Positions 1 through 11,554 of a DNA stretch of 50,134 nucleotides are shown here, one piece after another. The stretch's first letter is position 1. Each line of letters begins with the position of its first letter. The DNA is from an uncultured Muribaculaceae bacterium. GTDB taxonomy: Bacteria; Bacteroidota; Bacteroidia; Bacteroidales; Muribaculaceae. The position numbers and the translations under genes are program-made. The stretch covers positions 1-50,134 of the forward strand of contig CAMEPD010000009.1 of the NCBI GenBank assembly GCA_945931475.1, written 5' to 3'. The notes beneath the pieces were generated by a model. It saw nothing but the letters and a program-made list of their open reading frames with translations, searched no databases and had not been told where the DNA came from.

Positions 1-50
1 TCGGCCACCAATTGTTCGCCGTCGTGTCCGGTAGTGTTGTGCCGTGCCAT
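1..50 (-). CDS. yraN: YraN/UPF0102 family protein, N-terminus only (cut by window edge)
   Basis: Only the first 16 codons lie in the window, reading leftward from an ATG at 50-48: M-A-R-H-N-T-T-G-H-D-G-E-Q-L-V-A. The pattern of a short polar start followed by G-x-x-G-E-x-L-A/V is typical of YraN (UPF0102), a small predicted nuclease-fold protein of unknown role that often follows rnhB. It is the last visible gene of the minus-strand run headed by the GH3-like gene. Its first 14 coding bases, with the bases just upstream, are duplicated on the far side of the inserted element at 53-190. The identification rests on a very short stretch plus gene order. Confidence 0.7.
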   Translation of the reverse strand, partial: MARHNTTGHDGEQLVA

Positions 51-55
51 AATGC
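37..55. repeat. 19-bp direct repeat, left copy
   Basis: The sequence TTGTGCCGTGCCATAATGC at 37-55 recurs exactly at 191-209. The two copies flank the foldback element, and the last three bases (TGC) also belong to its terminal inverted repeat. This leaves a 16-19 bp target-site-duplication-like repeat. This copy contains the working ATG of yraN (complement of 48-50). The other copy carries an identical but orphaned ATG at 202-204. Confidence 0.85.
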
Positions 56-190
56 TTTTAACTTAAGGATGTTTCAGGTAATTGTAGGGACATCGCTTCG
101 CGATGTATACGTTGCAATGTTCCGATTCTCAACCGCTGACATCGCAAAGCGATGTCCCTACATTCTTTGTCGATTCTTAAGTTAAAAGCA
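53..190. mobile_element. MITE/REP-like foldback element inserted between rnhB and yraN
   Basis: The 138-bp segment has perfect 15-bp terminal inverted repeats, TGCTTTTAACTTAAG at 53-67 and its complement at 176-190. Nested inside is a second inverted repeat of 24 bp (83-106 against 139-162, one mismatch) that begins TGTAGGGACATCGC. Each inner arm is itself a hairpin with a 7-bp ACATCGC/GCGATGT stem. It encodes no transposase and is flanked by a 19-bp direct repeat, so it looks like a non-autonomous insertion. The inner arm recurs near 11.4 kb. Calling it mobile is an inference; a long duplication of this size is unusual for classical insertion sequences. Confidence 0.75.
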
Positions 191-209
191 TTGTGCCGTG
201 CCATAATGC
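191..209. repeat. 19-bp direct repeat, right copy with orphaned yraN start
   Basis: This is the exact second copy of TTGTGCCGTGCCATAATGC. On the minus strand it supplies an ATG at 204-202 located 7 nt after the rnhB stop, which is probably the original yraN start position. From this ATG a 48-codon frame stays open through the whole inserted element and ends in TAA at 60-58, again 7 nt before the real yraN ATG. Confidence 0.85.
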
Positions 210-211
210 AA

Positions 212-808
212 TTAAAAAAGTGTGAGTTGGTTGTCGAGCAGCCGGAATGTCATGCGGTGGTGTTCGGTCGGGCCGTATCGGGCGATGGCCGCGCGGTGGT
301 CGCGCGTGGGGTACCCTTTGTTGATTTCCCAGCGGTAATGAGGAAACAGGGCGCCTAAGCGGTTCATCTCGTCGTCGCGGTAGGTTTTCGCCAGGATTGA
401 TGCGGCGGCAATGTTGGCGAAGCGCCCGTCTCCCTTTACGAAGGTCTGCCAGGGCAAATCGCGGTATGGTTTGAATTTGTTGCCGTCGACTATGACGCTG
501 GTGGGGCGCACCGTCAGGGCATCAAGAGCCCTGTGCATGGCTTCAATCGAGGCGTTGAGTATATTGATGCTGTCAATTTCCTGAGGGGTGCAGATGCCTA
601 CGGCCCAGGCTGTCGCTTCGGCTTCGATGACTTCGCGTAACTGCCGACGTTGCCGGTCGGTGAGCTTCTTCGAGTCGTTGAGCAACTCGTTGTGGAAGTC
701 GTCGGGGAGAATCACGGCGGCGGCATAGACCGGGCCTGCCAGGCAGCCGCGTCCGGCCTCGTCGCATCCGGCCTCAAAGCCTCCGGGAGTGAAACATACA
801 GGGAGCAT
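212..808 (-). CDS. rnhB: Ribonuclease HII
   Basis: This enzyme cleaves the RNA strand of RNA-DNA hybrids and nicks at single ribonucleotides in DNA, in the cytoplasm. The 198-aa length is typical. The N-terminus has the signature G-C-D-E-A-G-R-G with the catalytic Asp16 and Glu17. A later V-D-G-N-K stretch and the A-A-A-S-I-L-A-K-T segment also fit the family. The start is the ATG at 806-808, 9 nt after the upstream acyltransferase gene, so the two are probably co-transcribed. The stop lies just before the direct repeat that borders the foldback element, and yraN follows it. Confidence 0.95.
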
Positions 809-817
809 TGTGAGGCG

Positions 818-1945
818 TTACAGTGGTTTGCGCCATGTGCAGCGGCGACGGTGCTGACGTGTCTCGAAGTACTGCCACTGCTCCTGCACCTTGGCGTTGT
901 CGGCCAGTTCGGGGTTCGATTCGGCGAATTTGAAGTGATTCTTGTTGAAGTAGGGAATCAAGTCGGTGAATAGCAGTGCGTTGACGCCGCGGTTCTGATA
1001 CTCGGGCTTGACGGCGATGAGCAGCAGGTCGACACCGTCTGACTTGCCGCGGAGGGCGCGCAGCAGGTGCCACCACCCGAATGGGAAGAGGCGTCCGCGG
1101 CTCTTTTGCAGCGCAGCCGAGAACGACTGGATGGAGATGCCCACTCCCACCAGTTGGTCTTTCTCGTCGACGATGAGGGTGAGCAGCTCAAGGTTGAGTA
1201 TGCCCAGATACATCTTTATATAGTACTGAATCTGGCGCGGAGTGAGCGGGCAGTAGCCGTATAGCTTGTCGTAAGCCTCGTTGATGAGGTTGAAGAGGGC
1301 CTCGCCGTACTCCTTTTTCACACGCTTGCGCGAGGTGTATTTGAGCACGCGCAGGTTGTTGCGTCGCTTCACTATCTCGGCGATGCGGGTGTATTTTTCG
1401 GGTACTTCGGGGGGTACGACCATCCGGAATTCGTGCCACTCGGCCTCCTTCTCGAAGCCCATGCGCTTCATGTGGTCGACGTAGTAGGGGTAGTTGTAGA
1501 TGGTGGCCATGGTGCCCACTTCGTCGTAACCGAAGGTGAGCATCCCTTCGTGATCCATGTCGGTGAATCCGAGCGGTCCGACAATGGAGTCCATCCCCTT
1601 GGAACGCCCCCAGTCGCCGGCGGCCTTGAACAGGGCGTCGGCTACCTCGGCGTCGTCGATGAAATCGAGGAAGCCGAAGCGCATGCTCCGTGAGTTGCAG
1701 CGCTCGTTCTCAACCGAGTTGATTATGCCGGTGATGCGTCCCACGGGCTTGCCGTCGCGGTAGGCCATGAACGACTGGGCCTCACAGAAATCGAAGGCCG
1801 GATTTTTCGAGGGGGTAAGTGTGTTGATGTCGTCGGTCCTCAACGGCGGCACATAGCAGGGGTTGTCGCGGTAGAGGTCGACGCCGAATTTTACAAATTT
1901 ACGCAGGTCGCTGCGTGAGGTGGAAATCGGTTTTACGGTAACCAT
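818..1945 (-). CDS. GNAT-like N-acyltransferase family protein
   Basis: The 375-aa soluble protein has no signal peptide. It begins V-K-P-I-S-T-S-R-S-D-L-R-K-F and has two GNAT-like halves. The N-terminal half carries R-D-G-K-P-V-G-R-I-T-G near residues 63-73, and the C-terminal half has A-V-K-P-E-Y-Q-N-R-G-V, which resembles the acetyl-CoA pyrophosphate-binding loop. It looks like the double-GNAT proteins common in Bacteroidetes, whose substrates are generally unknown. It lies 22 nt after the pseudokinase gene and 9 nt before rnhB in the same run. The substrate cannot be read from the sequence. Confidence 0.75.
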   Translation of the reverse strand: MVTVKPISTSRSDLRKFVKFGVDLYRDNPCYVPPLRTDDINTLTPSKNPAFDFCEAQSFMAYRDGKPVGRITGIINSVENERCNSRSMRFGFLDFIDDAEVADALFKAAGDWGRSKGMDSIVGPLGFTDMDHEGMLTFGYDEVGTMATIYNYPYYVDHMKRMGFEKEAEWHEFRMVVPPEVPEKYTRIAEIVKRRNNLRVLKYTSRKRVKKEYGEALFNLINEAYDKLYGYCPLTPRQIQYYIKMYLGILNLELLTLIVDEKDQLVGVGISIQSFSAALQKSRGRLFPFGWWHLLRALRGKSDGVDLLLIAVKPEYQNRGVNALLFTDLIPYFNKNHFKFAESNPELADNAKVQEQWQYFETRQHRRRCTWRKPL

Positions 1946-8805: not shown

Positions 8806-11332
<2,527 letters not shown>

Positions 11333-11554
11333 GGTGACTGTGTCAAAATTGGCAATTGTAGGGACATGCCTTTGGCATGTTTGCTTAACAGACTGATTAT
11401 CAATTCTAACATCGCAAAGCGATGTCCCTACATTAAGTCAATCGAGAATATTGACACACCCTCCTAATCCGTCGGAAGGCCGCTCTGACACGTCTAAGCA
11501 AACATTTCACCTTAAAATTTGTTATTGATTTATAACAAACAATGATAGGTGATT
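11333..11554. other. Intergenic region between ligA and a lipoprotein gene
   Basis: About 220 bp without a gene. Its left half is the foldback element at 11339-11458. The right half is AT-rich and leads to the lipoprotein start. No convincing -7/-33 pair was seen for that gene. Confidence 0.5.
11339..11458. repeat. Second TGTAGGGACAT foldback (REP/MITE-like) element
   Basis: The 120-bp segment has imperfect 12-bp outer inverted repeats, TGTGTCAAAATT at 11339-11350 and AATATTGACACA at 11447-11458. Inside are two convergent inner arms, 11357-11380 and 11409-11432. The right arm equals the inner arm of the element at 53-190. The left arm has ACATGCC/GGCATGT in place of ACATCGC/GCGATGT, so both sides of the hairpin stem have changed together. 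The outer repeats may belong to a ligA terminator into which the hairpin pair was inserted. No coding capacity is seen. Confidence 0.75.

Follow-up and report, generated by a model that had tools for sequence, protein, structure and literature searches.

Known Systems and the Locus

Bacterial MITEs are defined, in passages of PMC3733652, as elements of 70-300 bp with terminal repeats of 15-30 bp, no coding capacity and a strong RNA structure. Transcribed MITEs elsewhere are reported in the same passages to stabilise or to destabilise mRNA. For the IS4 family, the subgroup table of PMC2266710 lists ends of the form -AATR--------WTW---- and a target duplication of 10-13 bp for subgroup IS4, and ends of the form CA------T and a duplication of 8-10 bp for subgroup IS4Sa. 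One member of the latter subgroup (PMC2266710) is ISRm22 of Sinorhizobium meliloti. According to parts of PMC1525189, all copies of ISRm22 are inserted at the axis of REP palindromes; perfect repeats flank six of nine copies and imperfect ones the other three, and the authors invoke recombination between copies (PMC1525189).

The DNA discussed here, referred to as the window, is a stretch of 50,134 nucleotides from an uncultured Muribaculaceae bacterium (GenBank assembly GCA_945931475.1; 2.25 Mb in 125 contigs) and corresponds to contig C9 from its first base. It carries a 144-bp element at the junction of the genes rnhB and yraN (Table 1). This element resembles bacterial MITEs such as NEMIS, RUP, ERIC and Nezha, as described in passages of PMC3733652, in its size, its terminal repeats, its non-coding nature and its RNA structure: it contains no transposase gene, its sole frame has 48 codons, the inverted repeats of the window copy are perfect over 17 bp, and nine full-length copies are found at multiple unrelated sites. 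Unlike NEMIS, RUP, ERIC and Nezha, it is located mainly at REP palindromes, and its interior consists of a pair of GTAG-headed REP-like units. With ISRm22, it shares REP palindromes as targets and the occurrence of copies without perfect direct repeats (three of nine in ISRm22, according to parts of PMC1525189). However, ISRm22 is a complete insertion sequence that encodes a transposase and has 6-bp repeats (PMC1525189), whereas the element described here is 144 bp long, has no gene and is flanked by a 10-bp repeat. Its end motif and duplication length fit subgroups IS4 and IS4Sa as tabulated in PMC2266710, a comparison made with the subgroup table rather than with individual named elements; unlike in those subgroups, no transposase was found here. 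Like the Rickettsia palindromic elements, which are described in parts of PMC10969869 as measuring ~150 bp, containing an open frame and being inserted in or at genes, it has a comparable size and an open frame and is inserted at a gene. In contrast to these elements, its frame ends before the start of yraN without gene fusion, and the eight other full-length copies are located at REP half-sites. No description of the 144-bp element was found among the titles and abstracts listed from an open-access library. As detailed below, it is probably a MITE insertion of a largely ordinary kind at an unusual place.

Table 1. Features at and around the rnhB-yraN junction, in window coordinates.
Feature	Position	Strand	Evidence or remark
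yraN, 5' end (UPF0102); rest on contig C50	1..50	-	PF02021 match on C50; joined via the 55-base overlap
55 bases shared with the end of C50; assembly fork falls exactly where the left direct repeat ends	1..55	.	
19-bp direct repeat TTGTGCCGTGCCATAATGC, left copy	37..55	.	Consists of the 10-bp duplication and of TTG and TAATGC, which equal the element ends
10-bp target duplication, left copy TGCCGTGCCA, within the yraN start	40..49	.	10/10; register common to 5/9 full-length copies
144-bp MITE (nAATGC...GCATTn), without a gene of its own	50..193	.	9 full-length genome copies, 92-100% identity; ends from flank comparison
Left terminal inverted repeat AATGCTTTTAACTTAAG	51..67	+	
Open frame of 48 codons, running from the orphan ATG across the element	58..204	-	Same frame open in all nine full-length copies
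Inner unit TGTAGGGACATCGCTTCGCGATGT, GTAG-headed REP-like palindrome	83..106	+	Inner-part matches elsewhere in the genome and in 9 other family genomes
Second inner REP-like unit, opposite orientation	139..162	-	96% complementary to 83-106
Right terminal inverted repeat	176..192	-	
19-bp direct repeat TTGTGCCGTGCCATAATGC, right copy	191..209	.	
10-bp target duplication, right copy	194..203	.	
rnhB (ribonuclease HII), stop 214-212	212..808	-	PF01351, 139.8 bits

Copies, Ends and Target Duplication

The whole genome was searched for copies with window positions 37-209 or 51-192 as queries. Besides the window copy, full-length copies were found on C55, C21, C1, C36, C34, C35, C60, and C38. In addition, there are eight partial copies, which are either cut by contig ends (C59, C73, C56, C88, C69, and C109) or joined to another repeat (C96 and C16), and further matches that span only the inner part of the element.

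A first-pass annotation of this DNA had described, at positions 37-209, a 19-bp direct repeat, 15-bp inverted repeats, an orphan ATG, a 48-codon frame and two spacings of 7 nt, and all of these features are present and correctly placed. The inverted repeats are indeed perfect over the 15 bp at 53-67/176-190, but their actual length is 17 bp, as the perfect match extends to 51-67/176-192. When one mismatch was allowed, the inner 12 bases of the inverted repeat matched the window twice, i.e., in both arms, vs. 0.05 matches expected. Thus, the inverted repeat is not a product of chance.

When the copies were aligned by their flanks, AATGC...GCATT turned out to be common to them, the exceptions being AATGT at the left end of the C36 copy and GTTGC at the left end of the C60 copy. 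Since AATGC and GCATT are element sequence in the other copies, the element comprises positions 50-193, and a 19-bp target duplication was rejected. Direct repeats were then counted outside nAATGC...GCATTn at lengths of 8-13 for each full-length copy. A sharp peak was found at length 10, with 10/10 matches in the window and in C21, and 9/10 in C1, C36, and C35; at lengths 8, 9, 11, 12, and 13, these five copies showed at most four matches. A duplication of 12 bp, which would result if the ends were AATGC/GCATT without the outer base, was rejected on the basis of the same count. Thus, the annotated 19-bp direct repeat exists, but the target duplication proper is 10 bp, and the remaining nine target bases (TTG and TAATGC) equal the ends of the element. 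A 10-bp duplication lies within the range given for the IS4 family in the table of PMC2266710, and the unusual insertion mechanism that had been deduced from the long duplication does not follow.

An extension of a junction by at least nine matching bases is reached at 5 of 99068 positions (window, both strands) and is, therefore, unlikely to occur by chance. The nine extra bases possibly reflect a preference for target arms that resemble the ends, or template switching. In the latter case, replication would have jumped by microhomology at AATGC into a REP-borne copy, copied it together with part of its flank, and returned at TTGTGCCG, leaving the 19-bp duplication behind. This would explain the nine extra bases as well as the T that precedes AATGC in the window copy, where the other eight full-length copies have a C at their left end, and the right flank reads GCATTGTGCCG in several other copies. 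However, template switching predicts neither that the copied segment corresponds exactly to both ends of the element nor that the duplication has exactly the length of 10 bp found in other copies, and we consider it very improbable.

No direct repeat is present in the remaining four full-length copies (C55, C34, C38, and C60), in which inverted half-sites match at 7, 10, 9, and 10 of 10 positions, respectively. As the first-pass annotation had reasoned that copies without flanking repeats would oppose insertion, these four of nine copies argue in part against a simple insertion. Altogether, the genome-wide search for the element and its flanking duplications that had been proposed bears out the notion of a mobile foldback element inserted with target duplication, as nine full-length copies were found, with 10-bp repeats in one register in five of them.

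REP Palindromes as Targets

On both sides of the other eight full-length copies, half-sites of the GGTCGCGGCA/TGCCGCGACC type are found, usually after a GTAG tag (also GTAC, GCAG, or GTAA). On the right of the C36 copy, the half-site is not accompanied by the other half of the palindrome. With at most one mismatch, the tagged half-site GTAGGGTCGCGGCA occurs at 43 sites in the genome, and its reversed control at none. Comparison of coordinates revealed that 13 of the 43 sites abut a copy of the element. Uninterrupted whole palindromes were read as well, and these genomic sequences, i.e., many copies of a GTAG tag followed by a palindrome of 20-40 bp, resemble the GTAG-tagged REPs described in passages of PMC3733652. 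The half-palindromes were also considered as part of the element, which would then have longer ends. This was dismissed for copies flanked by one complete and one half palindrome; it is possible in the case of the four symmetric ones. By analogy, recombination between copies, as proposed for ISRm22, could also give the symmetric copies if it took place between copies in opposite palindrome halves.

The target in the window matches the REP half-site at only 7 of 10 positions, a level reached by 665 of the 49904 ten-mers of the window. The 20-mer ending at this target matches the full palindrome at 12 of 20 positions, which is reached by 146 of 49894. Judged from these matches, the window copy is best called an off-target insertion, with a target weakly resembling a REP half-site.

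We consider it quite probable that positions 50-193 constitute a non-autonomous, REP-targeting MITE that was moved in trans and landed off-target in the start of yraN. A transposase acting in trans, probably of the IS4 type, would recognise the ends AATGCTTTTAACTTAAG, cut the target with a 10-bp stagger and insert the element there, as a rule at half-sites of GTAG-type REPs. In the window, the insertion would have hit the initial codons of yraN, where the sequence bears some resemblance to a REP half-site. The yraN gene would remain whole, and its start codon would be present once more behind rnhB, since the 10-bp duplication and the GCATT end of the element re-create the start and the upstream bases. 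Against this explanation stand six elements without a direct repeat, i.e., four of nine in this genome and two of six in relatives (see below); five of them show inverted half-sites, and one, C45b of genome G015, shows neither. The search for a transposase with these ends, which yielded none, the weak match of the window target, the nine extra junction bases, the T before AATGC and the lack of a match in the 13 other genomes of the genus also speak against it. With this explanation, the unusual insertion mechanism that had been claimed gives way to one that is testable and mostly known, which illustrates how easily a single off-target copy is misread without its sister copies.

The REP targets themselves are often paired around a similar AT-rich centre (L110, L111, L112, and the flanks of L094-L100). 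At the same loci, they are found beside terminator-like hairpins (e.g., AAAAAGGCGATGTG...CACATCGCCTTTTT), with which they form a mosaic repeat. A REP pair, TTGTAGGGACATGCC...GCGATGTCCCTACA, is also located at 11351-11434 of the window, just after the gene for an NAD-dependent DNA ligase (9329-11332); it is flanked by GTGTCAAAATT and AATATTGACACACC and is 75% related to the interior of the element. Similar copies are present on C96, C116, and C84. On C16 (L117; G000:C16:37200-37455), a repeat of the same kind as that at 11351-11434 interrupts a copy of the element after 39 nt, directly behind a GTAGGG motif. Thus, these repeats nest in each other.

The Junction in the Assembly and in Relatives

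The last 55 bases of C50 are identical to the first 55 of the window, and the overlap terminates together with the left direct repeat, at the same base. When contig ends were compared (128 of 250), three pairs were found to overlap by exactly 55 bases (C50/C9, C20/C25, and C27/C42) and four by 22-47 bases. Since the exact value of 55 recurs in three pairs, it apparently corresponds to the word length used by the assembler. The fork between C50 and C9 is positioned where an allele without the element would diverge, which suggests that an empty-site allele may coexist in the sample. An upstream sequence variant could also cause the fork, but would end at this base only by chance. The C27/C42 overlap, which lies in coding-looking sequence, may come from a sequence variant. 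At the start of C25 (L158) and the end of C42 (L236), the contig ends share their first 55 bases inward and then diverge, as at another structural variant or a repeat edge.

The element is repetitive, the contig starts 49 bases ahead of it, and 55 bases overlap with another contig, as might be expected if the junction had been mis-joined from repeat copies during assembly. However, the flanks on both sides are coding (yraN and rnhB), and the fork lies on the yraN side at the element's edge, a position not expected from a mis-join via the element itself. We give such an artefact hardly any credence.

An rnhB match was present in 57 relatives. In 29 loci that were fetched and analysed with tblastn, yraN was found directly after rnhB only once (L067, genome G009), with a gap of 1 nt and no insertion.

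The 48-Codon Frame and the Transcript

The orphan ATG (204-202), which belongs to the duplicated yraN start, is located 7 nt after the rnhB stop; the stop codon of the frame (60-58) is part of the terminal repeat and precedes the yraN ATG (50-48) by 7 nt. Based on this geometry, which is real, the first-pass annotation had put forward that the element may preserve translational coupling. Ribosomes that have translated rnhB would restart at the orphan ATG, read the 48 codons, melt the foldback, terminate within its 3' arm and begin again 7 nt further on, at yraN, and the insertion would have been kept for this reason. For the transcript, a very stable foldback is predicted whose end lies immediately ahead of the yraN ATG (-75.8 kcal/mol, z -8.1), so translation through it could matter. 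However, each of the nine full-length copies keeps the frame open, even the C38 copy with its 3-bp deletion, and, judged from their flanks, the other eight lack an ATG where the window copy has the orphan start. Thus, the open frame is a property of the element and not a product of the event at yraN. Moreover, 423 of 5000 dinucleotide shuffles (8.5%) are equally open. Direct reading also showed that two of the three frames would terminate 7 or 12 nt ahead of the yraN ATG; since the stop lies in the terminal repeat, the equal spacing of 7 nt is a coincidence of the frame and the shared GCATT. In addition, direct succession of rnhB and yraN was found in one of the 29 loci of relatives, with a 1-nt gap (see above). 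Preserved coupling through the frame is possible, but we deem it improbable, and these observations lend it no support. Most likely, as far as can be read from the copies, the frame is a passenger.

The foldback may also act as an RNA. In that case, the hairpin would change the stability or the accessibility of the rnhB-yraN transcript and, thereby, alter yraN expression. Given the strong predicted foldback and the effects on mRNA reported for transcribed MITEs elsewhere (passages of PMC3733652; see above), an altered expression, in either direction, is plausible. A search of Rfam with window positions 1-900 at E 0.1 yielded no match, which argues against such a role, and we regard it as doubtful.

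Candidate Transposases

The end sequence of IS231 was the initial pointer to IS4 for the ends of the element. The fit was judged from the published table of ends and duplications (PMC2266710). The end CAATGCTTTTAACTTAAG fits both -AATR--------WTW---- and CA------T of this table, and the direct repeats, where present (five of nine copies), measure 10 bp, within the 8-13 bp of the two subgroups. Transposases of the IS4 family are DDE enzymes with a YREK signature. Considering the ends, the duplication and the target, the mobilising transposase is probably of the IS4 type.

No parent transposase bearing such ends was found in this genome or in the part of the relatives searched (PF01609, PF14294, and end patterns); possibly, the parent resides outside these assemblies. 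The only DDE_Tnp_1 match found in the genome is a 503-aa transposase with DUF772 (L255; G000:C11, 1474-2985, minus strand), and no end-like stretch was detected near its gene when short end motifs were sought. A DUF4372 transposase is present in 37 of 149 family genomes and was not found in this one, and none of the 30 DUF4372 loci fetched has an end at up to three mismatches. The DDE_Tnp_1 loci of genomes G015 and G290 have no end at up to four mismatches, and G375 and G036 have no DDE_Tnp_1 match. In a collection of genome contigs, the exact 18-base end matched three times, two of them within long open frames, and none of the matches has an inward second end at up to five mismatches. The end pattern yielded 18 single matches in a collection of viral contigs, five of which have a possible second end (4 mismatches) within 6 kb, and no match was found in the phage and plasmid collections. 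On C25, a 339-aa frame (L256; G000:C25, 1189-2208, plus strand) shows a weak match to Y1 transposases (20.2 bits vs. a cut-off of 23; 21.8-23.2 bits in another search) and is possibly a REP-associated transposase.

Related Elements in the Family

The element has no match at E 1e-5 in any of the 13 other genomes of the genus. At E 1e-6, with up to two candidates per genome scored, at least 10 of 397 family genomes match, its own included, and the other nine do so over the inner part only. The 17-base end, with at most one mismatch, is present in 11 of the 397 genomes. In G375 and G015, which represent two other genera, the ends occur as inverted pairs. Eight further genomes contain one end match each, which is near background, as a reversed control pattern matched once in each of five genomes.

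In G375 and G015, six complete elements of 103, 166, or 306 bp were examined. Their ends are alike, and their interiors are unrelated to that of the 144-bp element. Direct repeats of 10 bp, with 9/10 or 10/10 matches, flank four of the six. The element on C5 of G375 has such a repeat, yet it also fits an inverted half-site at 9 of 10 positions. In G015, inverted half-sites but no direct repeat flank element C45a, and neither of the two is present at C45b (166 bp). Thus, the target duplication is 10 bp in five of nine copies in the genome studied here and in four of six elements in the relatives, and it is absent in the remainder. The elements of G375 and the 306-bp elements of G015 are located at GTAG- or GTAC-headed half-sites with a different stem sequence. 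The 306-bp element of G015 (L301 and L294) has long inverted arms and similar ends, and one of its copies is found with and the other without a direct repeat.

Common ends and target habits together with unrelated interiors are as expected of one transposase acting in trans, and this sequence pattern indicates that the 144-bp element is a MITE mobilised in trans. Tentatively, and without favouring the idea, we consider it a real possibility that these elements form a MITE group, distributed over at least three genera of one family, with unrelated interiors (103, 144, and 306 bp), shared ends, GTAG-palindrome targets and two types of product, i.e., a 10-bp duplication or a clean split of the palindrome without duplication. 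One REP-seeking transposase would explain such a group, and its occasional off-target jumps, as at yraN, would copy start codons into intergenic spaces. A REP-seeking group with common ends in three genera and two product types is the more interesting lead. If real, it would provide naturally occurring ends and targets with which the transposase could be sought, and with which one could ask why certain palindrome insertions are not accompanied by a duplication.
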